64,000 nucleotides of DNA. Origin: Mesobacillus subterraneus. Lineage in GTDB: Bacteria > Bacillota > Bacilli > Bacillales > Cytobacillaceae. The notes beneath the pieces are model-generated. The model was not told the DNA's origin. It saw only the letters and a list, made by a program, of their open reading frames with translations, and made no database searches. Shown piece by piece: positions 1,632 through 39,845 of this stretch (the first letter of the stretch is position 1; each line of letters opens with the position of its first letter). Both the position numbers and the translations under genes were made by a program. The DNA lies in contig NZ_CP129019.1 in NCBI RefSeq assembly GCF_020524355.2, positions 496,001 to 560,000 of the forward strand. The letters run 5' to 3'.

Positions 1632-2027
1632 GAAATGGTCACAACCGTCGATCAAAAGAGTCCAACCGTAGATAAAATTTCATTAACCGTTTATAAAAAG
1701 AGTCCAACCGTAGATAAAAGTGCTCCACCAGTTAGAAAGTTGGAAATTGAACCATATCTGTTTTGAAAAATGGCTCAACCGGTTGGTATTAAAACAGCTT
1801 CAACTGGTATTAAAAGAGAACCAACCGGCATTAAAACAGCTTCAACTGGTATTAAAAGAAAACCAACTGGTATTAAATCAGCTTCAACTGGTATTAAAAG
1901 AGAACCAACCGGCATTAAAACAGCTTCAACTGGTATTAAAAGAAAACCAACTGGTATTAAAACAGCTTCAACTGGTATTAAAAGAGAACCAACTGATATT
2001 AAACCGGCTTCAACCGTTATTAAATAG
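1632..2027. repeat. intergenic tandem repeat array 1 (21/42-bp units)
   Basis: From about 1775 to 2027 a 42-bp unit made of two 21-bp halves is repeated about six times. Each half starts CAACTGGTATTAAAA or CAACCGGCATTAAAA, followed alternately by CAGCTT or AGARAAC. Between 1632 and 1740 there are looser copies of a related word, CAACCGTAGATAAAA. The words are all in the same orientation, unlike the other arrays in this window. Several frames stay open through it by virtue of the repetition, giving low-complexity ORFs that are not credible genes. Confidence 0.85.
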
Positions 2028-2054
2028 AAAAAAACGAATCTGGGAGGGTCTGGC

Positions 2055-2939
2055 ATGAACGTGATTGAGCTAAAGAATCTGACGAAAATGTACGGCAAGG
2101 CCAGGGGAATTGAGGATGTTAGTTTCAATGTGAAGGAAGGGGAAATTTTCGGGTTCATTGGTCCGAATGGAGCAGGGAAATCGACGACGATCCGGACTTT
2201 ACTATCATTGATTTACCCTACGAGCGGCAGCGCGACGATTTTTGGAAAAGATATTATCACTGCTTCTCCGGAAATCAAAAAAGATATCGGCTACCTGCCT
2301 TCCGAAGTGTTCTATTATGACAATATGAAGGTCATGGACCTGCTTAAGTATTCCGCAAGCTTTTACAAAAAGGACTGTACCAAGCGGATTAAAGAGCTTG
2401 CTGACGTCATGGAGCTCGATCTTACGAAGAAAATCGATGACCTGTCGCTAGGCAACAAAAAGAAGGTTGGCATCGTCCAGGGGCTGCTCCACGAACCGAA
2501 GCTAATCATTTTAGATGAACCGACTAGCGGGCTGGACCCGCTCATGCAGCAAAAGTTCTTTGACCTTCTAGAAAAAGAAAACAAAAAAGGTGCGACCATT
2601 CTGTTTTCTTCCCATATTCTCAGCGAGGTTCAGAGGCTGTGCGACAGGGTTGCGATCATCAAGGACGGCCGGATTGTCACCGTCGAGAAAATCAGCACGC
2701 TAAAAGAAAACACATATAAGAAATTCAAAATCGAATCCAATTCCGTAATCGATAAAAACATTTTCAATATTGACGGTGTGAACCAGCTTGAGCTGGACGG
2801 TGGAACGGTCAGCTTCCTCTTCAGGGGTAACATCAACTCTGTCATGAAAAAAATCGCCGAAATCGAGATTTCGAACCTCTGGGTCGAGGAGCCCGACTTG
2901 GAAGAGATTTTCATGCATTATTATGAAAAGGAGGAATAG
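2055..2939 (+). CDS. ABC-2 type exporter, ATP-binding protein
   Basis: The 294-aa ATPase of an ABC exporter of the CcmA/BcrA type. Walker A is GPNGAGKST (residues 36-44), the signature is the degenerate LSLGNKKKVG (about 130-139), and Walker B is LIILDEPTSGLDP (about 150-162). The C-terminal 80 residues are the usual variable extension. The ATG at 2055 follows GGGAGGG (2042-2048). It is the first gene of a three-gene operon with two ABC-2 permeases, 3 bp and then 15 bp apart, and probably is repressed by the TetR protein upstream. Substrate cannot be deduced; drug or lipid export are both possible. Confidence 0.9.
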   Translation: MNVIELKNLTKMYGKARGIEDVSFNVKEGEIFGFIGPNGAGKSTTIRTLLSLIYPTSGSATIFGKDIITASPEIKKDIGYLPSEVFYYDNMKVMDLLKYSASFYKKDCTKRIKELADVMELDLTKKIDDLSLGNKKKVGIVQGLLHEPKLIILDEPTSGLDPLMQQKFFDLLEKENKKGATILFSSHILSEVQRLCDRVAIIKDGRIVTVEKISTLKENTYKKFKIESNSVIDKNIFNIDGVNQLELDGGTVSFLFRGNINSVMKKIAEIEISNLWVEEPDLEEIFMHYYEKEE

Positions 2940-2942
2940 AAA

Positions 2943-3740
2943 ATGAATATATTCCTTCATGAACTGAAGGCATACCGGAAGTCTACTATTATATGGACCT
3001 TGTCGCTGGTGGCGATGGTTGTCTTGTTTTTAGCAATGTTTCCTTCCTTTTCAAAGGATGCGGAAGAGTTCAAGAAATTGCTTGAAGGCTTCCCGGTTGA
3101 ATTGAGGAAAGCGATTGGCTTGTCCGTGGACAGCATCGCGACATTGATTGGATTTTTCTCATACGCATTTCTCTATCTGAAGCTAGCGGGCGCCATCCAG
3201 GCTATGAATCTTGGAACCTCGATCCTTTCAAAGGAAACGCGGGAAAAGACAGCCGACTTCCTGCTTACTAAGCCAGTGACAAGGACGCAGATAGTGACTT
3301 CCAAGCTGTTGGCAGCGCTGGTTTCCCTGATTATTACCAACATCATTTTTATCGGAGCGACTTTCGTGATGGCAGCTATTGTTGAAGGGGACGATTTTAA
3401 CAAGGAAGCCTTGTTCTTGATTGCTGTTTCCCTGTTCTTCATCCAGCTAATGTTTATGGCATTAGGAATCATCGTTTCTGTGATTGCCCCAAGAATTAAG
3501 TCGGTGATATCAGTATCGCTCGGTACTGTTTTTGGATTCTTTATGCTCGGGATGATCAGTTCGACGACGGATGATGAAGCTTTACGTTATTTGACGCCGT
3601 TCAATTACTTTGACTCAACATACATCACACAACATTCAAGCTACGAAACTTCATTTATCATAGCCGGGATAGTGTTTATCATCGCAACGGTTTCGGCCAG
3701 CTATTATTTTTACGCAAAAAAGGATGTCCATTCCGTTTAG
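2943..3740 (+). CDS. ABC-2 type exporter, permease 1
   Basis: A 265-aa integral membrane protein with about six hydrophobic segments: one near residues 15-35, then pairs around 55-90, 120-150, 160-190 and a C-terminal one ending in a basic tail. The loop with TREKTADFLLTKPVTRTQIV is typical of ABC-2 permeases. It starts 3 bp after the ATPase stop and has AAAGGAGG upstream. It is homologous along its whole length to the next gene (both 265 aa), so the pair probably forms a heterodimeric channel that arose by tandem duplication. Confidence 0.88.
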   Translation: MNIFLHELKAYRKSTIIWTLSLVAMVVLFLAMFPSFSKDAEEFKKLLEGFPVELRKAIGLSVDSIATLIGFFSYAFLYLKLAGAIQAMNLGTSILSKETREKTADFLLTKPVTRTQIVTSKLLAALVSLIITNIIFIGATFVMAAIVEGDDFNKEALFLIAVSLFFIQLMFMALGIIVSVIAPRIKSVISVSLGTVFGFFMLGMISSTTDDEALRYLTPFNYFDSTYITQHSSYETSFIIAGIVFIIATVSASYYFYAKKDVHSV

Positions 3741-3755
3741 GGAGGAGGGAAAGTC

Positions 3756-4553
3756 ATGAATCTTTTTAAAAGGGAAATGAAAGCAAATCGCAAGTCGCTC
3801 ATCATCTGGAGTATCGGTGTCATTTTCATGGTCGCCGCGGGCATGGGCAAATACGCAAGTCTTGAAGGGACGGGTCAATCGATGAATGCGCTGATGGCTG
3901 ATATGCCTAAATCGATGCAGGCTATCATGGGAACGGGTTCACTCGATCTGTCAACACCGATTGGTTATTACGGAGTGTTATTTTTATACCTTGCTGTGAT
4001 GGGAGCTATCCATGCAGCGATGCTCGGCTCGAACATCATTGCCAAGGAAGAGCGTGACAAGACGGTCGAGTTCTTGCTGGTCAAACCAGTTTCAAGAACA
4101 AGAATGATAACATCCAAACTAATAGCAGCATTGGTCAACATTCTGATTTTCAATATTGTGACCTTTACTTCCTCTGTGGGTATGGTGCAGAAATATGCGG
4201 AAGGTGAGAATATGACCGGAGATATTACCTTGCTGATGATCGGGATGTTCATTCTACAGCTGATCTTCCTGGTTATCGGAAGCGCAATTGCTGCTAGCTA
4301 CAAAAACGCGAAAAAAGCCACATCCCTGTCAACAGGAATCTTGCTTATCCTTTTCATTTTATCGATAGCTATTGATATGAATGAAAAGCTGGATGGATTG
4401 AAGTTCCTGACTCCATTCAAATATTATGACGCAAAGCTTGTTTTGCTGGAAGGCGGATTCGAGCCACTGTATCTTGCATTTTCCTTTCTGCTGCTGATCG
4501 GGTTCACAATCGTAACCTTTGTTTTTTATCGAAAAAGAGATATGAATATATGA
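3756..4553 (+). CDS. ABC-2 type exporter, permease 2
   Basis: A 265-aa membrane protein with the same topology and the same central loop (ERDKTVEFLLVKPVSRTRMI) as the preceding permease. GGGAGGAGGG upstream of the ATG at 3756 is a strong ribosome binding site. It is the last gene of the exporter operon. No simple terminator follows; instead a long hairpin-rich repeat array starts just after the stop. Confidence 0.88.
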   Translation: MNLFKREMKANRKSLIIWSIGVIFMVAAGMGKYASLEGTGQSMNALMADMPKSMQAIMGTGSLDLSTPIGYYGVLFLYLAVMGAIHAAMLGSNIIAKEERDKTVEFLLVKPVSRTRMITSKLIAALVNILIFNIVTFTSSVGMVQKYAEGENMTGDITLLMIGMFILQLIFLVIGSAIAASYKNAKKATSLSTGILLILFILSIAIDMNEKLDGLKFLTPFKYYDAKLVLLEGGFEPLYLAFSFLLLIGFTIVTFVFYRKRDMNI

Positions 4554-4608
4554 TTCCTTAGCTAAACACACCCTTATGCGAGGGTTACACTATTGATGAG
4601 GGTGGAAT

Positions 4609-5110
4609 CGTATCCTTATGCAAGATTTTCATCTGCTATAAGGGTACGATAAAGGGCAAATCGTACCCTTATGTGAGGCATTCATCTGCCATAAGGGTAC
4701 GATAAAGAGAAAATCGTCACCTTATGTGAGGCATTCATCTGCCATAAGGGTACGATAAAGGGCAAATCGTACCCTTATGTGAGGCATTCATCTGCCATAA
4801 GGGTACGATAAAGGGCAAATCGTACCCTTATGTGAGGCATTCATCTGCTATAAGGGTACGATAAAGAGAAAATCGTCACCTTATGTGAGGCATTCATCTG
4901 CCATAAGGGTACGATAAAGGGCAAATCGTACCCTTATGTGAGGCATTCATCTGCTATAAGGGTACGATAAAGTGGAAAAACGTACCCTTATGTGAGGCAA
5001 TCGTCTGCTATAAGGGTACGATAAAGAGAAAAACGTACCCTTATGTGAGGCAATCGTCTGCTATAAGGGTACGGTAAAGGGCAAATCGTACCCTTATGCA
5101 CTAGCTCGGC
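4609..5110. repeat. intergenic tandem hairpin array 2 (53-bp units)
   Basis: Ten units start at 4609, 4662, 4715, 4768, 4821, 4874, 4927, 4981, 5034 and 5087, i.e. a 53-bp period with a single 54-bp step. Each unit has CGTACCCTTAT, an 18-nt loop GTGAGGCATTCATCTGCC, and the exact reverse complement ATAAGGGTACG, followed by a short AT-rich linker. First and last units are degenerate, and two units share CGTCACC in place of CGTACCC. The array fills the space between the exporter operon and hemY, whose 5' region (5111-5300) holds no gene. Confidence 0.92.
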
Positions 5111-5197
5111 ATTCCCTAAGGGTCCATTTCAATATTAGACATCTAGTTCCAGCGAAGAAAACATACTTGTTTTCGGCAGAACCCCCTCCAATTCGCA

Positions 5198-5243
5198 CCT
5201 GTTTATGCAAATTTCGCAAACAGGAGATCACCTGTTATTTTTT
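5198..5243 (+). terminator. terminator-like hairpins, mutually exclusive
   Basis: CCTGTTT (5198-5204) can pair with AAACAGG (5218-5224), but the latter can instead pair (AACAGG, 5219-5224) with CCTGTT (5231-5236), which is followed by six T residues. The second hairpin looks like a short intrinsic terminator. It may end read-through from the exporter operon or act as an attenuator; nothing in the sequence decides between them. Confidence 0.45.
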
Positions 5244-5300
5244 CCAAATCCCTCGTTCACATTTTAGTAAAAAAACACCCATCTTCCTATGAATTTCGAG

Positions 5301-5309
5301 TGCTATACT
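5301..5309 (+). promoter_or_regulatory. possible extended -10 promoter of hemY
   Basis: TGCTATACT is an extended -10 element about 80 bp upstream of the hemY start. No clear -35 box is present at the usual distance, so the assignment is weak. Confidence 0.35.
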
Positions 5310-5390
5310 TTAAATATGTTAAATACTGCACATACCTAGTTAATTAATTTATAGGATAATCAATACATTACTAAAGAATAGGTGAGCGGA

Positions 5391-6803
5391 ATGGACGAAA
5401 TGAAGGTCATTGTTGTTGGCGGCGGTATTACAGGACTATCGACAGCATATTATCTCCAAAAGAAAGCAAGGGAGAATCAGCTTCCCATCAGGGTGAAGTT
5501 ATTTGAGGCAAGCCAACGTCTTGGCGGTGTCATCAGTACTGAGAAACGGGACGGGTTCGTCATTGAAAGAGGACCGGATTCTATCATTGCGAGAAAAAAG
5601 AGTGCGATGAGATTGATAGAAGAAGTCGACCTTAAAGATAAAATTATAACTAATACTGCAGGGAAATCCTATATTTACGCGAGAGGCAAGCTTCATACAA
5701 TGCCTGAGGGCTCTTTCATGGGCATTCCCACAAAGGTGACGCCATTTGCATTATCAGGATTATTTTCACCACTTGGGAAATTGCGTGCTGCGGGGGATTT
5801 CATTTTACCAAAAGGGGAGCCGAAAGCAGATCAGTCGCTAGGGGCTTTTTTCCGCTACCGGCTTGGCGATGAGGTGGTCGACAACCTGATTGATCCACTA
5901 CTGTCAGGTATTTACGCAGGCGATATTGATGAACTCAGTTTGATGACCTTGTTCCCGAACTTTTATGAAATCGAACAGAAGTATCGAAGCCTTGTGGTTG
6001 GATTGAATAAATCGATGCCAAAGCCGCCGAAAGCTGCTAAAAAGCCTGGTTCCAAAAAAGGAATGTTCATCTCATTGTCGACAGGGCTTGAGGAGTTGGT
6101 CTACCAGGTTGAAAGCAGACTAGAAGAAGGAACAGTCGTGAAAGGCACAGCTGTAAAAAAGGTAGTGAAAACAGGAAGTACCTATCAAGTCCACTTTGAA
6201 ACTGGAGAGGTCGAAACAGCGGACAGCGTCGTCATCACGACTGACCATTTCCATGCGCAACGCATGCTTTCTGAGTATGCATTCATGGAACAATTCAAAG
6301 ATATGCCATCCAATTCTGTAGCAAATGTCGCGATGGCATTTCCAAAATCGGCTATTGAAAAAGATATTGAAGGAACAGGCTTCCTTGTATCGAGAAACAG
6401 CGATTTCCGGATTACCGCATGTACGTGGACACACAAGAAATGGCCCGGAACATCTCCTGATCATATGGCTTTGCTCCGTTGCTATGTCGGCAAACCGGAT
6501 GACCAGGAAGCCGTCGAACTGTCGGATGAAGAAATCGTCCAACTGGTTTTAAAAGATTTGAACAAGACAATGAATATTACTGAAAAACCAATCTTCCATA
6601 TTGTAACGAGATGGAGAAAAGCGATGCCGCAATATACGGTGGGGCATCTTGAAAAGATTGCCTCTGTCAAAAAACAACTCAATCAAGAACTCCCTGGTGT
6701 TTTCCTTGCCGGGGGATCGTTTGAAGGTGTTGGCATACCGGGCTGTATTGACCAGGCTGAAGCTGCGGTGGAAAAAGTAATCAGCCATCTGACTCAAGAA
6801 TAA
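5391..6803 (+). CDS. hemY: protoporphyrinogen/coproporphyrinogen III oxidase, HemY type
   Basis: A 470-aa FAD-dependent oxidase acting late in haem synthesis; Gram-positive HemY enzymes oxidise coproporphyrinogen III to coproporphyrin III. It has an N-terminal dinucleotide-binding motif VVGGGITGLSTAYYL (residues about 8-22), followed by the FAD-contacting KRDGFVIERGPDSI stretch and the C-terminal FAD motif LAGGSFEGVGIPGCI. Length matches B. subtilis HemY (470 aa). The ATG at 5391 is chosen because AGGTGA (5380-5385) is well placed for it; a GTG at 5382 lies inside that ribosome binding site. The gene stands alone here, whereas in many bacilli it follows hemE and hemH. A perfect terminator follows. 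Confidence 0.95.
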   Translation: MDEMKVIVVGGGITGLSTAYYLQKKARENQLPIRVKLFEASQRLGGVISTEKRDGFVIERGPDSIIARKKSAMRLIEEVDLKDKIITNTAGKSYIYARGKLHTMPEGSFMGIPTKVTPFALSGLFSPLGKLRAAGDFILPKGEPKADQSLGAFFRYRLGDEVVDNLIDPLLSGIYAGDIDELSLMTLFPNFYEIEQKYRSLVVGLNKSMPKPPKAAKKPGSKKGMFISLSTGLEELVYQVESRLEEGTVVKGTAVKKVVKTGSTYQVHFETGEVETADSVVITTDHFHAQRMLSEYAFMEQFKDMPSNSVANVAMAFPKSAIEKDIEGTGFLVSRNSDFRITACTWTHKKWPGTSPDHMALLRCYVGKPDDQEAVELSDEEIVQLVLKDLNKTMNITEKPIFHIVTRWRKAMPQYTVGHLEKIASVKKQLNQELPGVFLAGGSFEGVGIPGCIDQAEAAVEKVISHLTQE

Positions 6804-6815
6804 GCATAATTCCTG

Positions 6816-6845
6816 CCGCTATCTTTCAAAAAGATAGCGGTTTTT
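6816..6845 (+). terminator. intrinsic terminator of hemY
   Basis: A perfect 11-bp stem CCGCTATCTTT (6816-6826) / AAAGATAGCGG (6830-6840) with a 3-nt loop is followed by TTTTT. Confidence 0.93.
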
Positions 6846-6940
6846 ACTTTTAATAGGAAGATAGCCAAATACTTCTTTTTTAATATCGAAATCTTCTGTA
6901 AAATAGAGACATAAGGTTAAAAAAGTTTGGAGAGATCTCT

Positions 6941-8413
6941 ATGCGAAATAGTTTTCCTATTTTTGGGACAGATGATGAAACGACCTATAATCCTGATGAA
7001 CTGCTGAGTTTATTTTTGGATTGCACGGCTGACGGATTTGCTATTGTCGATATGGAGAATCGTTTTTTAAGAATCAACCATAAGTACACCGAAATTTTCG
7101 GCTATACAGAAGAAGACTTGATCGGGAGAACTTTTTATGAGTTTTCTAATCCCGATTTCGTACCGGGAATCATTTCTGAAGTCCAAAATGGAAAAGCGTA
7201 TACCAATATGATAACGAAGCGATTCCATAAAGATGGTTCCATGCTGGATATTGCAGTCTCTTATTCACCGTTCCGGAATAAGCATGGGAAAATCATCGCC
7301 ATCATTGCGATATATCGTGACATCACAAAAATTGTGAGCATGGAACGTGAGTTAAATAGAACCCGGGAATTGTATGAATTAATCACTGAAAATACGACTG
7401 ACATGATCAAGGTTATTAATAAGGACAAAGTAATCGTTTATGCTTCACCGTCACATGAAAAAGTAATCAGTCTGAAGCCGGAACAAATTGTGGGCAAAAG
7501 CTTGAGTGAATATCTGTCGCCTGAGGAAAATACCATTCTGGATAAAAAGCTCGAGGAAATTATCGAGACTGGTGAGCCGCAGATTTTACGGAAGAAATTC
7601 ACGCCTTGTGATCAAAATTCGGTTTATACAGAGTATAACTTTTCACCGATATACAATGAAAAAAAAGAGATAGAGTCCTTTGTCAGTGTCGGCAGGAATA
7701 TTACGGACCGAGTCAAGCAGGATACCACCATCCGGAATCTGGACAGGCTTTCTGTCACCGGCCAGCTTGCAGCGGGAGTGGCTCATGAAATCCGCAATCC
7801 ACTGACTTCATTGAAAGGTTTTTCAAAATTATTGCAGACCTGTCTGGATAAGGAGAAACAAGCGGATTACCTCGCCATCATGATGAATGAACTTGACAGG
7901 ATCGATTCGATTGTCAATGAGTTCATGTCACTGGCAAAGCCGCAGGCCGTCCAGTATGTAAAAGTAGACCTGAAGTCGATTCTGGACAGTACAATCAATA
8001 TCATCCATCCACAAGCCTTGATGAACAATGTCCAAATCATCACTGATTATGCAGAAGAAAATATTATGCTTTCCTGCAACCCGCATCAGCTTAAGCAGGT
8101 GTTTTTAAACTTCTTGAAAAATGCAATTGAATCCATGAATGATGGCGGCAAAATACTTATTGAACTTCAGATGCATGCTCCGGGCAAGGTAACGGCGAGC
8201 ATTTCTGATGAAGGTGCTGGAATCGAATCAAACCGTCTTCGATACCTTGGAACCCCTTTTTATACAACAAAAGATAAAGGAATCGGACTAGGACTCACCG
8301 TCAGCAATAAAATCATTCAGGAGCATAATGGCACAATGAAGATTGTCAGTGAAAAAGGGCAAGGGACGACAGTGATTGTTGAGTTGGATTGTGATGTCAG
8401 CGCATCCAAATAA
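6941..8413 (+). CDS. PAS-domain sensor histidine kinase (sporulation-kinase-like, orphan)
   Basis: A 490-aa soluble sensor kinase: two PAS domains (about residues 20-130 and 145-258), a HisKA dimerisation domain with phospho-accepting His282 in AAGVAHEIRNPLTSL, and a C-terminal HATPase_c domain with the N box FLNFLKNAIES, DEGAGI and GIGLGLTVS motifs. There are no transmembrane segments, so it senses a cytoplasmic signal. No response regulator lies next to it. Orphan soluble PAS kinases of this design in Bacillus (KinA, KinE) commonly feed the Spo0F/Spo0A phosphorelay; that role is inferred from architecture only. Start ATG at 6941 follows GGAGAG. Confidence 0.88.
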   Translation: MRNSFPIFGTDDETTYNPDELLSLFLDCTADGFAIVDMENRFLRINHKYTEIFGYTEEDLIGRTFYEFSNPDFVPGIISEVQNGKAYTNMITKRFHKDGSMLDIAVSYSPFRNKHGKIIAIIAIYRDITKIVSMERELNRTRELYELITENTTDMIKVINKDKVIVYASPSHEKVISLKPEQIVGKSLSEYLSPEENTILDKKLEEIIETGEPQILRKKFTPCDQNSVYTEYNFSPIYNEKKEIESFVSVGRNITDRVKQDTTIRNLDRLSVTGQLAAGVAHEIRNPLTSLKGFSKLLQTCLDKEKQADYLAIMMNELDRIDSIVNEFMSLAKPQAVQYVKVDLKSILDSTINIIHPQALMNNVQIITDYAEENIMLSCNPHQLKQVFLNFLKNAIESMNDGGKILIELQMHAPGKVTASISDEGAGIESNRLRYLGTPFYTTKDKGIGLGLTVSNKIIQEHNGTMKIVSEKGQGTTVIVELDCDVSASK

Positions 8414-8952: not shown

Positions 8953-8962
8953 TTGTTTTCAA

Positions 8963-9777: not shown

Positions 9778-9787
9778 ATAGGAATTA

Positions 9788-10829: not shown

Positions 10830-10867
10830 ACGATTGGTGCTGCTCAAAAATTAATAAGACAAAAAAA

Positions 10868-12406: not shown

Positions 12407-12508
12407 CTGTCCACTTCCTTTCACACTTATTTTACCTTTACAGGAGAAAGAAAAAAAGCGCTAGCCATTTGTTAGCGGCGGATAATGAATAAGAGCCAAA
12501 TGTAAATA

Positions 12509-12622
12509 CTGTCTGTCATCAAAGATATGACGGACAGAAAAGAAGCAAAAGGGATGAAAAAGTGTCCGTCATCAAGGGAATGACGGACAGAAACGAGACA
12601 AACAGTCAATTTTCGTCCGTCA
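12509..12622. repeat. intergenic hairpin repeat array 3 (two and a half units, ~51-53 bp)
   Basis: Two units consist of CTGTCYGTCAT, a short loop, and ATGACGGACAG (12509-12537 and 12563-12590); a half unit GTCCGTCA lies at 12615. The spacing of the word starts is 53 and then 51 bp. It follows the same inverted-word plan as the larger arrays at 4.6 and 31.7 kb. Confidence 0.8.
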
Positions 12623-12748
12623 CACATCACTCCACATATATCTACTTGCACACATTTTCCTGTTAATAGATTCATGCCCTTACGTTTTTGACCAACCTCG
12701 AATTTATTAATTAAGAAGTGGAACTTGAGGATAGCAAGGAGGAGCATT

Positions 12749-22863: not shown

Positions 22864-22986
22864 ATGGCAAAGAAAAAACCAAAGCATGATAAATCCCTTC
22901 CAAAAGCGGATGTTGAGTTTGCAGAAGAAAGAGGGAATGGGTTTGAGAAGGTTGCGTTGAAAGCCCAGAGAAAGAACAATAAGTAA
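22864..22986 (+). CDS. small basic protein, 40 residues
   Basis: ATG at 22864 follows an almost perfect ribosome binding site (AAGGAGGTGAT). The product, MAKKKPKHDKSLPKADVEFA then EERGNGFEKVALKAQRKNNK, is highly charged and hydrophilic. The DVEFAEE stretch recalls small spore-associated proteins such as YfhD, but the resemblance is slight. A terminator follows. The gap before it (22540-22850) contains no gene or clear signal. Confidence 0.6.
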   Translation: MAKKKPKHDKSLPKADVEFAEERGNGFEKVALKAQRKNNK

Positions 22987-23001
22987 GGAATATAAAAAAA
23001 A

Positions 23002-23041
23002 AGAGAAGGAGTCCGGCTAACCGATTTCCTTCTCTCTTTTG
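23002..23041 (+). terminator. intrinsic terminator (possibly bidirectional)
   Basis: AGAGAAGGA (23002-23010) / TCCTTCTCT (23027-23035) followed by CTTTTG. It lies between the small basic protein gene and the convergent map gene; an A run on the left could make it serve both. Confidence 0.75.
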
Positions 23042-23045
23042 TTTT

Positions 23046-23816
<771 letters not shown>

Positions 23817-31598: not shown

Positions 31599-31703
31599 TG
31601 TTTTTTAAGTTATTGATGCGGACAAATTTAAGCGCTATAAAAGAATGCTCAATCAGTATTAGGTACGAAATTTTGTCATCTCAAAGGAAAAGGTAACATC
31701 AGG

Positions 31704-32582
31704 AGCGGACAAAAGCTCGCCGGAGCAGCCTTGATTTGTTCGAAGTCCCCCCGGGTTCGGACAAAGTCATGCCGGAGCAGCTTCAATTTGTTCAAAGTCC
31801 CCTCAGGTTCGGACAAAATCTCGTCGGTGCGGTTACAATTTGTCTGAAGTCCCCCCAAGTTCGGACAAAATCTCGTCAGTGCGGCTTCAATTTGTCTTAA
31901 GTCACCCCGAGTTCGGACAAAATCTCATCGGAGCATCAACAATTTGTCCGAAGTCCCCCCGGGTTCGGACAAAATCTGGTCGGAGCATCACCAATTTGTC
32001 TGAAGTCCCCCCAGGTTCGGACAAAGTCTCGTCGGTGCGCCATCAATTTGTCTGAAGTCACCCCGAGTTCGGACAAAATCAAGCCGGAGCATCAACAATT
32101 TGTCCGAAGTCCCCCCAGGTTCGGACAAAATCTCGTCGGTGCGGTTACAATTTGTCTGAAGTCCCCCCAGGTTCGGACAAAATCATGCCGGAGCATCAAT
32201 AATTTGTCCGAAGTCCCCCCGGGTTCGGAAAAATCATGCAGGTGCCTCAACAATTTGTCAGAAGTCATCCCACGTTCGGACAAAATCTCGCCGGTGCATC
32301 AACAATTTGTCTGAAGTCCCACCGAGTTCGGACAAAATCTTGCTGGAGCATCAACAATTTGTCCGAAGTAACCCCAAGTTCGGACAAAATCTCGTCGGTG
32401 CACCATCAATTTGTCCGAAGTCCCCCCAGGTTCGGACAAAATCATGCCGGAGCATCACCAATTTGTCCGAAGTCCCCCCAAGTTCGGACAAAGTCTCGTC
32501 GGTACACCTACAATTTGTCCGAAGTCCCCCCAGGTTCGGACAAAATCTCGTCGGTGCGCCATCACTTTGTCCGAAGTATCTC
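31704..32582. repeat. intergenic tandem hairpin array 4 (52-bp units)
   Basis: About sixteen units with a 52-bp period (TTCGGACAAA starts at 31756, 31808, 31860, 31912, 31964, 32016, 32068, 32120, 32172, 32224, then 32275, 32327, 32379, 32431, 32483, 32535). Each unit carries TTTGTCCGAA, an 11-nt loop of type GTCCCCCCAGG, and TTCGGACAAA, separated by a GC-rich variable spacer (ATCTCGTCGGTGCGGTTACA or ATCATGCCGGAGCATCAACA types). Frames stay open across it through repetition only. It fills the gap between the two-component operon and the GH16 gene. Confidence 0.92.
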
Positions 32583-32655
32583 CAATTCATTTTCACCATC
32601 TCTTATGCGGAGATTCACTTAAAACCCAATTAATCTTCAACTGTTTTAACGTTTT

Positions 32656-32670
32656 TTGGAAGTGTTTTCA
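32656..32670. promoter_or_regulatory. possible cre box upstream of GH16
   Basis: TTGGAAGTGTTTTCA matches the CcpA consensus except for T in place of the central C. It lies 140 bp before the glucanase gene. Confidence 0.35.
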
Positions 32671-32809
32671 AATGATGTTGCGCTCTTCTAAAATATTGTC
32701 ACCCTAAACAAAATTCTCTATCTCAAGATGCAGGACTGGCAAAGGTAGAATAGAAATTGAGATATATTTTGTTCACAGCAACGAGTCTTTTCATAAAGGG
32801 GCGGTTTAG

Positions 32810-33616
32810 GTGGAGTCAAAAAACCAGGATCAATTAAGCGAAGAAATGATGACGCTTTCAAATTCTGAAGCGGAGTGGAAGTTAGTTTGGGAAGAGAACT
32901 TTAATCTTTCTGAGATAGATGAAAACAAATGGAATTTTGTTGAGGCAGGCACAGGCTTCGGGAATGAAGAATCCCAGTACTATACAAGACGGAAAGAAAA
33001 CGTGCGAATCGAGAATGGCATGCTGGTTCTTGAGGCGAAGAAGGAAGAGTATAAAGGGATGGATTATACATCCGCGAAAATGACGACCAGAGGCAAGGCA
33101 GCCTGGAAATACGGTCGATTTTCTTTTCGGGCAAAATTGCCGGAAGGACAGGGAATCTGGCCTGCAATCTGGATGATGCCGGAGGATATGAAAAAGTATA
33201 CTGGATGACCAGCTTGCGGTGAAATTGACATCATGGAGAGTATCGGACATCAACCAGGTACCGTTTATGGAACGCTTCATTATGGCATGCCCCACACATA
33301 TACAGGAGACAATTATACACTTCCAGAAGGCGAAAAGTTCTCCGATGACTTTCATGTTTTCACTCTTGATTGGGAGCCAGGAGAATTCAAATGGTATGTA
33401 GATGATGTCCTGTATGCACGACAGACTGAATGGTTCAGCAAGGCTGTAGACTCAGAAGATGAGCAGCCTGGTTTTGCACCATTTGACCGCGAATTTTATC
33501 TGCAGCTAAATCTGGCTGTCGGAGGAAAATGGCCGGGATACCCTGATGAAACAACCAAGTTCCCACAGCAGATGACAGTTGATTACATCAAAGTTTACAA
33601 GCGAGAAGACTATTAA
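32810..33616 (+). pseudogene. GH16 endo-beta-1,3-glucanase, interrupted by TGA
   Basis: Read through, this is a 268-codon laminarinase-type GH16 enzyme: WKLVWEENFNLSEIDENKW, KYGRFSFRAKLPEGQGIWPA and the catalytic GEIDIMES (two Glu around Asp), then DDFHVFTLDWEPGEFKWYVD and LQLNLAVGGKWPGYP. TGA at 33206-33208 replaces the Trp expected in YTG-W-PACGEIDIME, just before the active site, so the written product lacks the catalytic residues. The GTG start follows AAGGGGCGG. No signal peptide, so the intact protein would be cytoplasmic. It heads a glycosidase operon of four genes. Confidence 0.9.
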
Positions 33617-33635
33617 CATTCGAGGTGAGAAATTG

Positions 33636-34970
33636 GTGAATAGATTTTCAAGAGATTTTATTTTCGGAACAGCTACATCTTCCTATCAAATAGAAGGAGC
33701 TTATAAAGAAGACGGAAGGAGCCTTTCCATTTGGGATACATTTTCCCGGACTCCCGGAAATGTCTTCAATATGGATAACGGGGATATTGCGTGTGACCAT
33801 TACCATTTATATGAGAAAGATATTGAGATTTTAAAAACGCTTGGTGTGGATTCTTATCGATTCTCGATTGCCTGGCTAAGGATTTTTCCAGAGCAAGGAA
33901 AGTATAACAAAGCAGGAATGAATTTTTACAAAAACCTTATAATACGCTTGATCGAAAACGGAATAAAGCCTGCGGTCACTCTTTACCATTGGGATCTGCC
34001 AATGTGGGCGCATGAACAGGGTGGCTGGACAAACAGAGAATCTGTAAATTGGTTCATGGAATACGCAGAGAAATGCTTTGAGGAGCTTGATGAGCATGTG
34101 GAAATGTGGATTACCCATAATGAGCCGTGGTGCGCAGGTTTCCTCGGTTACCATCAGGGTGTACATGCTCCAGGACATACAAATATGGAGGAAGCATTAA
34201 AAGCGGTTCACCATATTCTTCTGTCCCATGGTGAAGCAGTGTCTCTGTTGAAAGACAAGCTTGCCTCTTCAACACCTGTCGGCATTACGCTGAATCTGTC
34301 GCCGATGTACCCTGCAAGCAACTCAGCAAATGATCGATTGGCCGCTAATAATGCCGACGGCTATACAAACCGATGGTTCCTTGATCCTGTATTAAAAGGG
34401 TATTACCCAGCCGACATGATGAACCTATTCTCCAAATACGTCCACTCCTTTGAGTTTATCCAGGAAGGTGATTTGGAAAAGATTTCGATTGAGTGTGATT
34501 TCTTTGGGATTAACTTTTACACCCGCAGTCTAGTTAAATTCAATGCTGCATCAGATTTCCTTTACACAAGTGCTTATTCAGACTACGAAAAGACAGGAAT
34601 GGGATGGGATATCTCTCCTTATGAGTTTAAGGATTTAATCCGGCGTCTGCGCAAGGAATATACGAAACTGCCAATTTATATCACTGAAAATGGCGCAGCT
34701 TTCGATGATCAGGTTTCAGTAGACAATACAGTCCAAGATCCAGAGCGACAAAATTATATTGAACAACATATTAATGCTGTTGCAGATCTGAATGAAGAGG
34801 ATATGAATATCGCTGGCTATTATCAATGGTCCCTTCTCGATAACTTTGAATGGGCATTTGGTTATGAAAAACGTTTCGGTATTACCTATGTCAACTTCGA
34901 AACACAGGAGAGAATCTTAAAAGACAGTGGTTACCGTTATGCTGAAATCATCAAGGAACGTTCAATTTAA
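33636..34970 (+). CDS. GH1 beta-glucosidase
   Basis: A 444-aa TIM-barrel glycosidase, retaining. Acid/base Glu163 in WITHNEPWCAGF and nucleophile Glu351 in LPIYITENGAAF are both present, as are the N-terminal FIFGTATSSYQIEGAY and the C-terminal WSLLDNFEWAFGYEKRFG. GAGGTGAG upstream suits GTG 33636 (or TTG 33633). No signal peptide. In this operon it would cleave short beta-glucosides, such as laminaribiose, to glucose in the cytoplasm. GH1 also contains 6-phospho-beta-glucosidases; with an ABC importer rather than a PTS, the unphosphorylated substrate is more likely. Confidence 0.93.
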   Translation: MNRFSRDFIFGTATSSYQIEGAYKEDGRSLSIWDTFSRTPGNVFNMDNGDIACDHYHLYEKDIEILKTLGVDSYRFSIAWLRIFPEQGKYNKAGMNFYKNLIIRLIENGIKPAVTLYHWDLPMWAHEQGGWTNRESVNWFMEYAEKCFEELDEHVEMWITHNEPWCAGFLGYHQGVHAPGHTNMEEALKAVHHILLSHGEAVSLLKDKLASSTPVGITLNLSPMYPASNSANDRLAANNADGYTNRWFLDPVLKGYYPADMMNLFSKYVHSFEFIQEGDLEKISIECDFFGINFYTRSLVKFNAASDFLYTSAYSDYEKTGMGWDISPYEFKDLIRRLRKEYTKLPIYITENGAAFDDQVSVDNTVQDPERQNYIEQHINAVADLNEEDMNIAGYYQWSLLDNFEWAFGYEKRFGITYVNFETQERILKDSGYRYAEIIKERSI

Positions 34971-34995
34971 ATCTTATACCTTCGGAGTGATAATG

Positions 34996-37900
34996 ATGGA
35001 AAAATACCGATTTGATGAAAATCAATACCTTGTAATTGAAGAATTCGATCAGGCAAAAACGTTCTCGAGCTTCCTTCCTGGCTTAGCAGGATTATACGGG
35101 ATTCCGATTTGGGCATTTTACGTAAACCGTGGACAGGCAATGGTCAGCTTCGGTGTCCAGGATAAAAATCATGCCATTACAGAGTTCTTCCCGGCAAATC
35201 AGGCGTATCAGCGTGTAGCAGCCAATGGTTTCCGCACTTTTATAAAAATGGATGGGAACAACATCGTTGAACCTTTCTCGTCATTCGGAAGCAAGAAAGA
35301 CCGAACGAGAAGGATGTATATCAAAGAGAATGAGCTGAAAATTGAGGAAATCAATCATCAATACGGATTGAAGACACTTATTACGTATTTCACATTGCCG
35401 AACGAGAACTTTGGAGCTTTGGTGAGAAAGGTTGAAGTTGAAAATCTTACTGAAGAATCAATGAACCTCGAGCTGCTCGATGGACTGCCAGCGATCATTC
35501 CATTTGGCATTGATGACGCAGCCTACAAAGCAGTTGGAAATACACTGAAAAGCTGGATGGATGTATTCAATCTTGAAAATCGCATTCCATACTATAGAGT
35601 CCGTTCATCAACAAATGACTCAGCGGAAGTTGAAGAGGTTTCGAAAGGCCATTTTTACTTGAGTTTTACTGATGATGGTCAATTGATCTCGCCAATTGTT
35701 GATGCTGATCTTGTATTTGGGTCAAACAGTTCACTCTCTTTTCCTGATGCGTTTGAAAGTAAATCAGTGGAAGAGATCTTAAGTGCTGCGCCAGTTACAT
35801 CCAATAAAGTTCCTTGTGGCTTTTCTGGTGTTAGCGGATTGCTTGGCAAAGGCGAGAAGATATCCTTCCATACGCTTGTTGGCCATGTGAAGGATATTGA
35901 AATCATCAATGGAAAAGCAGCAGAGATAATGGCGAACGGATATATGGAGAGAAAATATGAAGAAGCTCAAAGTCTTGTAACCGGGATCACGAAGGATGTG
36001 CAGACAAAAACGGCTTCACCGCTGTTTGATGCTTATGTTAACCAAAGCTATCTCGATAATGTGCTGCGCGGCGGATACCCAATTAGCCTGGAAACTGACG
36101 CATCACCGTTTACTTATTATGTATTTTCCCGCAAGCATGGAGATCTGGAGAGGGATTATAACTTCTTCTCGCTTGCGCCAGAATTCTTTTCCCAGGGCAA
36201 CGGAAACTTCCGTGATGTGAATCAAAACCGACGGAATGATGTCTTTTTCCATCCTGAAACCGAAGATTATAATATCAAGCTATTCATGAGCCTGATTCAG
36301 GCAGATGGATATAATCCGCTTGTGGTAAAAGGTGCAAGCTTTGAACTAAAGGATCAGTCGGACTGGTCATGGCTGGAGGAGCTTGTCTCGGATGATATGG
36401 GCGCGATATTCATCAAAAAGAAGCTAAGCGGAACTTTTACACCCGGTGATTTGCTTCAAACAATTTCAGACAGCGAGATAGATTTGACAGTATCACTTCC
36501 GGAATTCCTGAAAAATCTCCTTTCCAGGAGCAGCCAAAACATTGAGGCCGAGTTTGGTGAAGGGTTCTGGATGGATCACTGGACTTACAATCTTGACTTG
36601 ATTGAAAATTACCTGAAGGTCTACCCGGAAAACAAAACAGGGCTTCTATTTGAAGATTCCAGCTATAAATATTTCCACAGCCCTGTATTTGTGAACCCTC
36701 GCTCTGAAAAATATGTCTTGGCAAACGGCAAAGTCCGTCAATATGAGGCCATTACAGAATACGGTCATCAAAAAGGCTCAAACTGGTTGACTACATCTGA
36801 GGGAGAATTCTATACATCGAACCTTTACAGCAAAATTTTCTCGCTAGCTCTGATTAAGTTTTCTACATTGGACCCTTATGGAATGGGTGTGGAAATGGAA
36901 GCGAATAAGCCTGGGTGGAATGATTCAATGAATGGTCTTCCTGGATTATTCGGTTCAGCCATGAGTGAGACACTCGAACTTAAACGTCTTCTTGACTTTG
37001 TCATTGCCTCTGGAGAAAGTGGGGACATTGACATTGCACTGCCTGTAGAGGTATCTGAACTGGTTGAGGCTGTTCATGCAAATCTTGTCCTGTTTGAAAA
37101 AGGTGAATTGGACGATTACAACTATTGGGATCGTGTATCCGCTGCCCGTGAGAAGTATCGTGAAGAAGTGAAAAATGGCTTTGAAGGGACGGAAAAAAAT
37201 ATCCCGTTACAAAAGCTGACAGGGTATGCAAGGCAAATGCTTTTGAAGACAAAGGCAGGAATAGAAAAAGCGACAGAGCTTGGCGATGGACTGATTCCAA
37301 CCTACTTCTTCTTTGAAGCTGTGAACTGGGAAAAGATTGTTGATGTGAACGGGAACGAACAGTTGAACAAAAAAGGACTTCCGTTCGTTAAGGTCAACGA
37401 ATTCAAGGTGTCTGTGCTGCCACATTTCCTCGAGGGACCAGCAAGGGAATTGAAGAGTGCTGATGCAGAAAAAGCCCGTTCGACGTATCAGAATGTTAGG
37501 AACTCTGAGATCTATGATCCAAAACTAAAAATGTATAAAACATCTGGGGCACTGGAAGAGCAAACTTATGAAATCGGACGAGCGAGGGCATTTACTCCAG
37601 GCTGGTTGGAGCGAGAATCCATCTTCATGCATATGGAATTCAAATATCTGCTCAGTGTCCTGAAGTCAGGGTTATATGAAGAGTTTTATGAGGATTTGAC
37701 CTCTGCGCTGCCACCATTCATGGATGCGGAAGTGTACGGCAGGAGTATTCTTGAAAACTCCTCCTTTATTGCCAGCAGCGTGAATCCGGATGAAGCCTTG
37801 CATGACCAGGGTTTTGTCGCCAGGTTAAGCGGAACAACGGCAGAATTTTTAAGCATCTGGCAAACGATGATGATGGGCAAAGAGGCTTTTGCAGTCCGAG

Positions 37901-38175
37901 AAGAAGGGCTTACATTAAGCCTGCAGCCAATATTGCCATCATGGCTTTTCGATGAAGAGGGAAATGTGCAGTTTACATTACTGGGTAAGACTCAGGTAAC
38001 CTACCATAATCCAACAAGAAGAAACACATTCGGAATGGATGGTGCCAGGACAGTTAGATATGTGCTCCACCTAATTGGTGAAGAGGTCACGGTTGAAGGC
38101 ACACACTTGCCTGAATGGTATGCAAAAGCTGTCCGGAATGGGAAAATTTCAAAAATCGACGTTTATTTAGACTAA
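34996..38175 (+). CDS. GH94/GH161-type beta-glucan phosphorylase (GH161-like by size)
   Basis: A 1059-aa cytoplasmic protein of the inverting phosphorylase superfamily, recognisable by YDPKLKMYKTSG, ARAFTPGWLERESIFMHMEF, MDAEVYGRSILENSSFIAS and the C-terminal FTLLGKTQVTYHN. The length and the context with GH16 and GH30 fit the GH161 group (beta-1,3-oligoglucan phosphorylase, PapP of Paenibacillus) better than cellobiose phosphorylase (about 800 aa). It would convert beta-1,3-gluco-oligosaccharides and phosphate to glucose-1-phosphate. The GGAG at 34984-34987 suits ATG 34996 (or 34993); upstream in-frame ATG codons lie within the GH1 gene. Confidence 0.78.
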   Translation: MEKYRFDENQYLVIEEFDQAKTFSSFLPGLAGLYGIPIWAFYVNRGQAMVSFGVQDKNHAITEFFPANQAYQRVAANGFRTFIKMDGNNIVEPFSSFGSKKDRTRRMYIKENELKIEEINHQYGLKTLITYFTLPNENFGALVRKVEVENLTEESMNLELLDGLPAIIPFGIDDAAYKAVGNTLKSWMDVFNLENRIPYYRVRSSTNDSAEVEEVSKGHFYLSFTDDGQLISPIVDADLVFGSNSSLSFPDAFESKSVEEILSAAPVTSNKVPCGFSGVSGLLGKGEKISFHTLVGHVKDIEIINGKAAEIMANGYMERKYEEAQSLVTGITKDVQTKTASPLFDAYVNQSYLDNVLRGGYPISLETDASPFTYYVFSRKHGDLERDYNFFSLAPEFFSQGNGNFRDVNQNRRNDVFFHPETEDYNIKLFMSLIQADGYNPLVVKGASFELKDQSDWSWLEELVSDDMGAIFIKKKLSGTFTPGDLLQTISDSEIDLTVSLPEFLKNLLSRSSQNIEAEFGEGFWMDHWTYNLDLIENYLKVYPENKTGLLFEDSSYKYFHSPVFVNPRSEKYVLANGKVRQYEAITEYGHQKGSNWLTTSEGEFYTSNLYSKIFSLALIKFSTLDPYGMGVEMEANKPGWNDSMNGLPGLFGSAMSETLELKRLLDFVIASGESGDIDIALPVEVSELVEAVHANLVLFEKGELDDYNYWDRVSAAREKYREEVKNGFEGTEKNIPLQKLTGYARQMLLKTKAGIEKATELGDGLIPTYFFFEAVNWEKIVDVNGNEQLNKKGLPFVKVNEFKVSVLPHFLEGPARELKSADAEKARSTYQNVRNSEIYDPKLKMYKTSGALEEQTYEIGRARAFTPGWLERESIFMHMEFKYLLSVLKSGLYEEFYEDLTSALPPFMDAEVYGRSILENSSFIASSVNPDEALHDQGFVARLSGTTAEFLSIWQTMMMGKEAFAVREEGLTLSLQPILPSWLFDEEGNVQFTLLGKTQVTYHNPTRRNTFGMDGARTVRYVLHLIGEEVTVEGTHLPEWYAKAVRNGKISKIDVYLD

Positions 38176-38195
38176 TGAGAATGAGGTGCTTATAG

Positions 38196-39533
38196 ATGAA
38201 AATAAAAGTAATCCAAACTGCCAAAAACACCGGTGACCGCTTTGCTGATAAGGGGTATGCTTCTGTAGCAGACCGGAATGATGACCAAAAGATCGTCATG
38301 AACCTTGATCCAGAAACGAAATATCAAAGCTTCATGGGATTTGGGGGAGCGTTTACAGAGGCGGCTGCCTATACGCTTGCGCAAATCCCGGAAGATGAAC
38401 GCCTAAAAATAATCGAAAGCTATTTTAACCAGGAAACAGGTCTTGGCTACAGCCTGGGCAGAACCCATATTCATAGCTGTGACTTCGCACTGGAGAACTA
38501 CACTTATGTGGAAGAGAATGACGTTGAACTAAAGACTTTTTCAATCGAACGGGAACAGAAATACGTATTGCCTCTCATAAGGGATGCGGTGAAGGCAAGA
38601 GGAGAAGAGTTGACGATCCTTTCTTCTCCATGGAGCCCTCCGGCATGGATGAAGACAAATAATGAAATGAATAATGGCGGAAAGCTGAAGCCTGAGTTTT
38701 ATAGCAGATGGGCTTTGTATTACACGAAATACATCAAGGCGATGGAATCAGAAGGAATCCCGATTTGGGGAATCACTGTGCAGAATGAGCCGGAAGCAAC
38801 ACAGGTCTGGGATTCCTGCAGATATACAGCCGAAGAAGAACGTGATTTTGTGAAAAATCATTTGGGACCTGTCATGGAGCAGGAAGGTCTAGGTGATAAG
38901 GAAATCATCATCTGGGACCACAATCGGGATATTGCTTATGAGCGGGCAAAGACGATTTTATCAGACGCTGAGGCTTCAAAATATATTTGGGGTACCGGGC
39001 TGCACTGGTATGTTTCTGAGGAGTTCGAGAACTTAAGCAAGATCCATGAGGATTTTCCGGATAAGCATCTGATTTTTACCGAAGGCTGCATTGAAGGCGG
39101 AGTCCAGTTAGGCGCATGGCATACTGGGGAACGTTACGCAAGGAACATCATGGGCGATATCAATAACTGGCTTGAGGGCTGGATTGACTGGAATATTGTC
39201 CTGAATGAACAGGGCGGTCCGAACCATGTAGGCAATTATTGTGACGCTCCAGTGATCGCTGATACAAAAACCGGTGAAATTCACTATAACAGTTCCTTCT
39301 TTTATATTGGACATTTCAGCAAGTACATTAAGCCAAACGCAGTAAGAATCGCACATGAACTAAATCATGAATCATTAAAAGCAGTATCATTCCAAAATGA
39401 AGATGGCTCCATTGTTGCTGTGGTCATGAATGATGCAGACAGTACAGAGTCATTCTCATTATCGGTCGGAAGTAAGACTGCCGAAGCTGAGTTGACTGGC
39501 CATTCAATTACAACATTCATCGTAGAAAGTTAA
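38196..39533 (+). CDS. GH30 glycosidase (beta-1,6-glucanase/beta-glucosidase type)
   Basis: A 445-aa clan-A glycosidase: SFMGFGGAFTEAAAYTLAQI, ILSSPWSPPAWMKTN, acid/base Glu198 in VQNEPEATQ and nucleophile Glu296 in HLIFTEGCIEGG, then a C-terminal beta-rich domain (VAVVMNDADSTESFSL). The subgroup is GH30_1/3-like, including glucosylceramidases, beta-1,6-glucanases and beta-glucosidases. No signal peptide. Together with GH16 and the phosphorylase it suggests degradation of a beta-1,3/1,6-glucan such as laminarin or fungal wall glucan. Last gene of the operon. Confidence 0.9.
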   Translation: MKIKVIQTAKNTGDRFADKGYASVADRNDDQKIVMNLDPETKYQSFMGFGGAFTEAAAYTLAQIPEDERLKIIESYFNQETGLGYSLGRTHIHSCDFALENYTYVEENDVELKTFSIEREQKYVLPLIRDAVKARGEELTILSSPWSPPAWMKTNNEMNNGGKLKPEFYSRWALYYTKYIKAMESEGIPIWGITVQNEPEATQVWDSCRYTAEEERDFVKNHLGPVMEQEGLGDKEIIIWDHNRDIAYERAKTILSDAEASKYIWGTGLHWYVSEEFENLSKIHEDFPDKHLIFTEGCIEGGVQLGAWHTGERYARNIMGDINNWLEGWIDWNIVLNEQGGPNHVGNYCDAPVIADTKTGEIHYNSSFFYIGHFSKYIKPNAVRIAHELNHESLKAVSFQNEDGSIVAVVMNDADSTESFSLSVGSKTAEAELTGHSITTFIVES

Positions 39534-39539
39534 GCTCTG

Positions 39540-39608
39540 CCACCTCCTTGTCATGACAAAATGTGCTTTATGCTATGTGATGATCATGAAAAGGAGGTGG
39601 TTTTATTT
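39540..39608 (+). terminator. large terminator hairpin after the glycosidase operon
   Basis: CCACCTCCTTgTCATGA pairs with TCATGAAAAGGAGGTGG about 30 nt downstream and is followed by TTTTATTTT. Its 3' arm contains a ribosome-binding-site-like AAGGAGGTGG, but no ORF follows it. Confidence 0.78.
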
Positions 39609-39649
39609 TAGAAGTTTTTTAAGGCTTGTAAAATAATGAAGGATGGCTC

Positions 39650-39845
39650 AACTTGGTCGAAATAACTGGGAATGTGGTCGAATTAATTTAAAATTCGCCA
39701 ATAAAATTCGGAATGTGGTCGAATTAATTTAAAATTCGCCAATAAAACTTAAAATGTGGTCGAATTAATTTAAAATTCGCCAATAAAATTCGGAATGTGG
39801 TCGAATTATTTTAAAATTAGCGCCAATAAATTTAAATATGGTCGA
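39650..39845. repeat. intergenic tandem repeat array 5 (41-bp units)
   Basis: TGGTCGAATT repeats at 39675, 39716, 39757 and 39798, with degenerate copies at the edges (39650, 39838), i.e. a 41-bp period. Each unit also has AAATTCGCC in the opposite sense of GGTCGAATT, giving an imperfect hairpin, followed by AATAAAATTCGGAATG or a variant. Situated between the glycosidase operon terminator and the MATE gene. Confidence 0.85.

Follow-up and report, generated by a model that had tools for sequence, protein, structure and literature searches.

Intergenic tandem arrays of differing words and shared period in Mesobacillus subterraneus and related Bacillales

Plasmid iterons are direct repeats near two helical turns, a spacing that aligns the bound protein on one face of the DNA. 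In enterobacteria, gyrase sites are over-represented in bacterial interspersed mosaic elements of the BIME-2 type, palindromic arrays that gyrase binds and cleaves with a preference for loops and non-complementary stretches of the stem (PMC6379681). The extended Escherichia coli gyrase site has a phased 10-bp G/C variation, and the C-terminal domains of GyrA are believed to have DNA pieces of 35–52 bp wrapped around them (PMC6379681). The arrays considered here share traits with both systems. They lie between genes in a 64,000-nucleotide window of Mesobacillus subterraneus (the whole stretch analysed, positions 496001–560000 of the single 4,786,507-bp contig NZ_CP129019.1, assembly GCF_020524355.2), which contains five of them, numbered 1 to 5 in order of position, and no description of such arrays was recognised in the open-licence literature.

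The reading favoured here, judged from sequence and given a probability of roughly one in two, is that the arrays are bent-DNA platforms that insulate operons. Tandem periods of about two or five helical turns, together with an internal 10.4-bp AT/GC wave, would give the array an intrinsic bend; an architectural DNA-binding protein would wrap or coat the bent array on one helix face, and the wrapped array would insulate the neighbouring operons. The words would drift, be homogenised by slippage or unequal exchange and be copied between loci, and changes breaking the helical register would not spread. The arrays are, we infer, selected on spacing and shape.

Period classes and the internal helical wave

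The genome was sampled as 40 stretches of 20 kb, one every 120 kb (800 kb, 17% of the genome). For comparison, four complete congeneric genomes contributed 20 stretches, other genomes of the family or order another 20, and named relatives their eno neighbourhoods (the best 80 of 586, 78 of them readable). Intergenic and genic sequence was separated by a crude open reading frame (ORF) caller, class arrays being masked before gene calling for the period, terminator, codon-bias, strand and gap-placement counts, and arrays of L013 that overlapped the window were removed as duplicates. The primary period of an array is its smallest period, and the period classes are 20–21, 40–42, and 51–53 bp. In the whole sample (own genome and relatives), 143 intergenic arrays were found, and 108 of the 133 with a primary period of 15–60 bp stood at 20, 21, 40–42, or 51–53 bp, compared with 4 of 38 genic arrays, none of which was at 51–53 bp. 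Unmasked gene calling gave 100/124 intergenic and 12/47 genic arrays in the classes (four of the 12 at 52 bp), and exclusion of all eno loci still left 75 of 94 intergenic arrays in them. Counting all periods of at least 15 bp and taking the classes as 51–53, 20–22, and 40–42 bp, the shares were 44/61 in the own genome, 27/32 in the genus, 33/43 in the eno neighbourhoods, and 5/7 in other genomes. The initial annotation had proposed one spacing rule for differently worded intergenic arrays and had named the period distribution as its check; on this systematic sample the periods cluster strongly, with the preference that had been predicted. Extrapolated to the whole genome, the sample suggests ∼144 arrays with 52-bp-class and ∼90 with 20–21-bp-class periods; arrays cover 1.55% of the sampled sequence.

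The remaining 25 intergenic arrays are off-class and include 12 at 33–37 bp, eight of which belong to a separate dispersed repeat of the own genome; this 34-bp family indicates that other periods are possible. The second dispersed intergenic repeat is TGTCTAGCTCCAGCGCCTAACCCCTCGAGACGCT-like (own-genome stretches L012, L014, L015, L018, L037, L038, L039, and L047), and its arrays of 34, 71, 89, or 121–124 bp ignore the helical rule and serve as an internal contrast. A 53-copy 18-bp repeat with the unit TTGGTCCTGTTGGTCCTG, possibly collagen-like, lies within an ORF at 12590–13550 of L042.

The helical signal is also found inside the units. The 52-bp-class set comprises 74 arrays of 51–53 bp, 63 of them at exactly 52 bp, collected with a filter that allowed 49–55 bp. 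Word clusters were made by circular alignment, since clustering on shared 6-mers had collapsed all words into one cluster, and with one unit per cluster at three clustering thresholds, the GC harmonic k = 5 (10.4 bp) reached z = 6.7, 8.1, and 9.9 for 29, 37, and 44 clusters, the next highest harmonic lying at a z of about 2.4. Similarly, the 20–21-bp unit gave z = 7.7 for the GC harmonic k = 2 (about 10.3 bp) in 51 units not clustered by word. Mean k = 5 power was 0.104 in arrays, 0.046 in array-free gaps, and 0.038 in genes, and outside Mesobacillus the k = 5 harmonic of AT dinucleotides was raised in 13 arrays (z = 3.5, p = 0.0035). For 13 of the 16 word clusters the AT minimum of the wave falls near the dyad of the unit (vector length 0.67), and in the window the top GC harmonic is 10.6 bp in array 2 and 10.2 bp in array 5. 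The bend predicted by a dinucleotide wedge model exceeds that of unit-shuffled tandem controls in both the 52-bp class (z = 7.5) and the 20–21-bp class (z = 4.3).

Unit length is more constant than sequence. Inside arrays, 2185 substitutions were counted against 168 indel events (13 to 1), and unit spacings are exactly 52 bp in 395 of 496 cases; single units of 49–54 bp occur, yet no array consensus leaves 51–53 bp under a filter that allowed 49–55 bp. The words have diverged so far that unit length, if it were neutral, would presumably have drifted as well. The opposing view is that the arrays are selfish or neutral satellites, formed by slippage and template switching in permissive gaps, with a replication-linked ruler setting the unit length. 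Array-edge units that look decayed by eye and higher-order periods of 104 and 156 bp are features of concerted evolution that agree with it, and a 13-to-1 ratio of substitutions to indels is taken here as not unusual for neutral DNA. A slippage ruler, however, would leave the internal 10.4-bp wave unexplained, would have to hold the consensus at 51–53 bp although single units of other lengths arise, and does not account for the scarcity of class periods within genes with masked or unmasked calling, where 21, 42, and 51 bp would keep the frame. Satellites of this kind are considered an improbable explanation, though a serious one.

Alternation of the two forms at orthologous gaps

The gap downstream of eno offers a comparison across genera. 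By its eno sequence the own genome belongs to Mesobacillus, the best named match being M. selenatarsenatis SF-1 at 99%, equalled by Bacillus sp. ISL-37. An array starts at most 500 bp past the eno stop codon in 22 of the 78 readable named genomes, and all 22 have primary periods in the classes (20–21 bp in 15, 42 bp in one, and 51–53 bp in six), with carriers spanning Neobacillus, Lysinibacillus, Ureibacillus, Rossellomorea, Fictibacillus, and Bhargavaea. Within the genus, a 51–53-bp array occupies 15 of 19 readable eno gaps (G005, whose gap is cut by a contig end, and G010, which has no eno locus, are left out), and these arrays fall into three word families, ATGACGGACA, CTATCGGACA, and TTTAATGGACA/TTATTAGACA. 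The other four gaps hold a single unit by eye (G007 and G002), no array (G012), or a 37-bp repeat (G008). In the gaps read, the eno arrays are positioned beyond the eno terminator.

Both forms occur in the gap of array 2, which lies behind an ABC permease gene and was compared across 20 genus genomes. Tandem Repeats Finder (TRF) reports 53-bp arrays in four of them (G000, G003, G009, and G019), and about three diverged 53-bp-type units in G016 and one in G013 were seen by eye; ten genomes have 20–21-bp arrays and four have no TRF array. Words related to those of array 5 are also found at the permease gap of relatives. The 53-bp and 20–21-bp states are interleaved on gene trees and therefore changed more than once, although recombinational exchange of two old haplotypes would also explain the pattern. 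By eye, the fourteen genomes without 53-bp sequence keep a terminator of the CCCGGG..CCGGG-T-run type after the permease stop codon (partial in G015), and this intrinsic terminator is absent in all six genomes with 53-bp-type sequence. Here (window 4554–4606; L221–L240) it is as if the array stood in for a lost terminator. At the array 1 gap, 9 of 20 genus genomes (the own genome among them) have arrays of the 21-bp class and none has a 52-bp array; the pepA gap carries 52-bp arrays in 3 of the 19 genomes with a full-length pepA locus, the own genome included.

The comparison of orthologous intergenic regions proposed by the initial annotation thus revealed different words with the same period, and 53-bp and 20–21-bp arrays that alternate at the permease gap. 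Because periods cluster, the units contain a 10.4-bp wave, and both forms occur in the same orthologous gap, phased protein binding is a reasonable lead as the single mechanism that had been suggested, and the terminator function offered beside it is weak, as set out below. A broader proposal, put forward tentatively and with less assurance than the platform reading itself, is that Bacillales keep a class of chromosomal element defined by geometry, in which words would be free, unit length and the 10.4-bp wave fixed, the two forms interchangeable at the same site, the five-turn form replication-polar, and shape and phase the properties that are read.

The five window arrays and a shared dyad motif

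All five arrays were confirmed where they had been reported, with periods of 21/42, 53, 53, 52, and 41 bp (by TRF; array 3 by word spacing), and none is assigned a strand. Array 1 (1642..2024), of the 20–21-bp class, has units of 21 bp and a composite of 42 bp made of direct repeats of the CAACYGGTATTAAAA/CAACCGTAGATAAAA type, which TRF resolves into 1642–1719 (21 bp) and 1784–2024 (21/42 bp, 5.7 copies of 42). Its gap is flanked by a TetR gene and an ABC-transporter ATPase gene, and the TetR homologues beside the gap have one in-frame stop codon each in four relatives (L247, L248, L251, and L260). Array 2 (4606..5098; 53 bp, 9.3 copies by TRF) is built of the inverted-repeat unit ATCGTACCCTTAT..ATAAGGGTACGAT, and no intrinsic terminator is seen here after the permease gene upstream of it. 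Array 3 (12508..12625) occupies a divergent gap and consists, by eye, of two units and a decayed half of the inverted word TGTCCGTCAT/ATGACGGACA; TRF reports nothing at 12.5 kb, and the spacing of 53 bp was measured from repeated words, the pairs standing at 12529/12582 and 12515/12568.

Array 4 (31706..32577; 52 bp, 16.8 copies by TRF), with the inverted word TTCGGACAAA/TTTGTCCGAA, lies between an AraC-type response-regulator gene and a GH16 fragment. The region 31600–32700 contains eight promoter-like matches at the array compared with a mean of 0.9 in shuffles (consensus matches only), several of which are the CGGACA and TACAAT of the unit at 18-bp spacing. Two short adjacent ORFs follow directly after the array, at 32810–33616. 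The first of them aligns with the beginning of a GH16 domain, and the pair looks like pieces of a broken glycosidase gene. Array 5 (39669..39830; 41 bp, 3.9 copies by TRF) has two words of ∼20.5 bp, GTGGTCGAATTAAT.. and TTCGCCAATAAAAT.., and sits between a GH30 gene and a MatE gene. Words occur in both orientations in arrays 2, 3, and 4, as had been noted, and in one orientation only in arrays 1 and 5. The placement between genes also held, in that ORFs of at least 130 amino acids exclude all five arrays, though shorter ORFs cross arrays 1, 3, and 4.

The words themselves are neither specific to one locus nor wholly unrelated, as the initial annotation had supposed. The genome contains 40 matches to the array 4 sequence, which group by eye into about 20 separate places, array 4 itself among them, and the own-genome array behind eno consists of the array 3 word. 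In addition, the 52-bp words share a hidden dyad motif and are therefore not unrelated. The motif was registered in the 67 of 74 arrays with an integer axis (seven with a half-integer axis were left out). Reading outwards from the dyad, offsets 4–8 form a variable word that is largely symmetric between the arms and holds little sequence shared between arrays, and offsets 9–13 form a degenerate core of T/G, G/T, A/C, C, and A/C. The C at offset 12 is present in 129 of 134 half-sites of the 67 arrays and in 24 of 24 outside Mesobacillus, with 1.70 bits when weighted by 16 word clusters compared with a maximum of 0.69 in 200 shuffled controls. The 20–21-bp units have a weaker shared motif (7.14 bits compared with a maximum of 5.94 in 20 shuffles, in which the controls had fewer restarts), and no inverted repeat occurs in the units of this class that were read.

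This motif is what a second explanation would predict, namely arrays of operators for a family of sequence-specific dimeric or oligomeric proteins, in which the core at offsets 9–13 would be the contact, the variable word the specificity, and helical spacing would stack the dimers on one face. Besides the nearly invariant C, the arms agree at 0.67–0.91 over offsets 4–14 even where offsets 4–8 share little sequence between arrays, a figure inflated because the axis was chosen on those same offsets. Each of the 16 word clusters would, however, need its own reader, and the 20–21-bp class, with at most a weak motif and no inverted repeat in the units read, nevertheless occupies the same gap. Operators are judged unlikely, if slightly less so than satellites, and sequence-specific dimers and a replication-linked mutational ruler both remain serious rivals to the bent platform. 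WhiA, which we presume could read GACAC-like cores, is a lead and nothing more.

Replication polarity, candidate readers, and known systems

Array occupancy and strand composition both depend on context. In the own-genome and genus samples, considering gaps no shorter than 100 bp, convergent gaps contain arrays in 16 of 91 cases, codirectional gaps in 40 of 398, and divergent gaps in 8 of 128 (convergent vs. divergent, p = 0.014). With the leading strand inferred from the GC skew of each sampled stretch, the purine-rich strand coincides with it in 38 of the 45 arrays of the 52-bp class (24 of the 26 own-genome arrays); with two further arrays, whose best periods are 60 and 61 bp, the figure is 40/47. 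The bias is found in 4/4 head-on, 11/11 convergent, and 18/23 codirectional arrays. Array-free gaps have a mean purine content of 0.51–0.52 on the leading strand; the share above one-half is 51% for convergent gaps, 63% for head-on gaps, and 75% for codirectional gaps, and because of this last value the codirectional arrays are not distinctive by count. Array strand orientation follows replication where replication and transcription are separable, and such cases are few. In the 20–21-bp class, 17 of 24 arrays have the purine-rich strand leading (p = 0.06). The polarity of the 52-bp class also agrees with the satellite explanation, in which unit length is tied to replication.

Three side observations concern strand and replication. 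AGAAG occurs at 6.43 and 0.35 per kb on the two strands of 52-bp-class arrays. The Chi-like AGCGG was dismissed as part of the general purine skew (1.29 vs. 0.30 per kb on the two strands), and the SpoIIIE recognition sequence GAGAAGGG was dismissed at 0 per kb in arrays. The GC skew of the G000 contig reverses its sign twice, once between about 1.82 and 1.92 Mb and once between about 4.34 and 4.44 Mb, which makes it unlikely that the contig begins at the replication origin.

A third explanation holds that the arrays act as RNA, as transcribed tandem hairpins whose role would be either to stabilise 3′ ends or to terminate transcription, perhaps as weak terminators of transcription running against the fork. 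The units can form hairpins; at least five T in the eight bases after the arm were found in 17 of 67 arrays on the pyrimidine-rich strand and in 0 of 67 on the other; and among 45 arrays of the 52-bp class, 15 terminator-like units are in lagging-strand sense (in four arrays) and one in leading sense (in one array), opposite to the bias of array-free gaps (142 kb; 64 lagging-sense vs. 130 leading-sense). The six permease gaps in which 53-bp-type sequence occurs without the terminator kept by the other fourteen would also fit. Yet 41 of the 45 arrays have no lagging-sense terminator-like unit, and a pattern scan found no terminator-like unit in arrays 2 and 4. Mismatches between the arms are G·T in 26, A·C in 14, and of other types in 127 cases, so that G·T is above A·C and close to its chance share, strand composition tracks replication in head-on and convergent gaps, and the eno arrays lie beyond a terminator. 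No Rfam family matches any of the five arrays (window 1–42000, E ≤ 1), and the single match, mir-1253 at 22983–23051, is below the gathering score and outside the arrays. Array-facing 3′ ends have a terminator-like hairpin before the array in 31 of 72 cases, and array-free ends have one in 83 of 271; with so few arrays containing terminator-like units the terminator function suggested by the initial annotation is a weak one. Given the mismatch types, strand tests, and Rfam search, hairpin function in RNA is not preferred; an RNA role for most arrays is unlikely, the least probable of the explanations considered, and weak terminators facing the fork are possible for a minority of arrays only.

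For the bent platform, gyrase would be the first candidate protein, by analogy, because of its phased 10-bp G/C site, its presumed wrapping of 35–52 bp, and its binding of BIME-2 in E. coli, and an HU-like protein would be the second. Several observations weigh against the platform interpretation. Taken by itself, the period histogram does not favour 10.4 bp over spacings of 8 or 17.3 bp, which score similarly, and it was rejected as sole proof of helical phasing; no primary period of 31 bp (three turns) occurs among the 133 intergenic arrays. In arrays 1 and 4 the helical harmonic exceeds expectation (0.12 vs. 0.048 and 0.038), yet another harmonic is the strongest, and AT dinucleotides also give a k = 7 signal (z = 4.1). 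Off-class arrays of 47 bp (L075) and 180 bp (L097) lie 580–640 bp past the eno stop codon, and the two-copy 37-bp repeat in the eno gap of G008 breaks the period rule. With a shared dyad motif, the 52-bp arrays are not fully independent, and their common wave may thus be partly inherited. Purine-strand polarity with replication is not predicted by simple bending. By codon bias, which is only a proxy for expression, the 47 genes with an array at the 3′ side are not expressed at a higher level than 256 others (rank 0.56 vs. 0.52, p = 0.63); this speaks against a simple gyrase model and leaves gyrase traps at strongly transcribed units unsupported. Finally, the attraction of gyrase behind transcribed units seems not to be hard-wired in sequence (PMC6379681).

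If spacing and shape are what is kept, similarity searches would miss a functional DNA class that makes up about 1.5% of the sampled genome. The role of the bacterial 10–11-bp AT periodicity would then be directly testable, the sites being discrete, abundant, and deletable, and bacteria would offer, in these arrays, an example of satellite-like turnover in which a ruler is conserved.

Each known system matches the arrays in part. Iterons resemble only the 20–21-bp class, which has direct repeats near 20–22 bp, and differ in that the arrays here are chromosomal, at hundreds of gaps by extrapolation, and have differing words. Borg repeats, as far as the portions of the source seen describe them, are similar in occupying many loci with different words, in being head-to-tail and rapidly evolving, and in biased composition (A-rich in Borgs, purine-rich here); in contrast, Borg units are perfect and 43–65% of them lie within ORFs, the arrays here are imperfect and mostly intergenic, and the helix-length rule seen here has no counterpart for Borg repeats in those portions (PMC9879509). 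Genome-wide A-tract periodicity is likewise a 10–11-bp phased AT signal tied to bending and nucleoid proteins, but it is a diffuse genomic signal there, whereas here discrete tandem arrays have a period that obeys it (PMC3940949). The closest likeness is to BIME-2 and repetitive extragenic palindromic (REP) sequences, which are also intergenic and tandem with palindromic units containing internal non-complementary stretches (PMC6379681). Palindromic intergenic units are present in the 74 arrays of 51–53 bp, some with weak inverted arms, and absent from the 20–21-bp class, and the phased ∼10-bp G/C variation of gyrase arrays is found here without, by the codon-bias proxy, their enrichment downstream of highly transcribed units. 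Unlike REP and BIME sequences, these arrays have no single consensus word but 16 word clusters with a degenerate core (the GTAG-like REP head was not searched for), and their unit length is fixed near 52 or 20–21 bp. The Y1_Tnp domain (PF01797) of the transposases is absent from the whole genome at E ≤ 0.001, the control being positive in 5 of 14 genomes, and movement by a resident IS200 enzyme or REP-associated tyrosine transposase (RAYT) is therefore unlikely; RAYT/REP mobility was rejected on this ground, in keeping with the initial annotation, which had argued against transposition of one element. The arrays may work like BIME-2 without belonging to the RAYT-type REP/BIME family.

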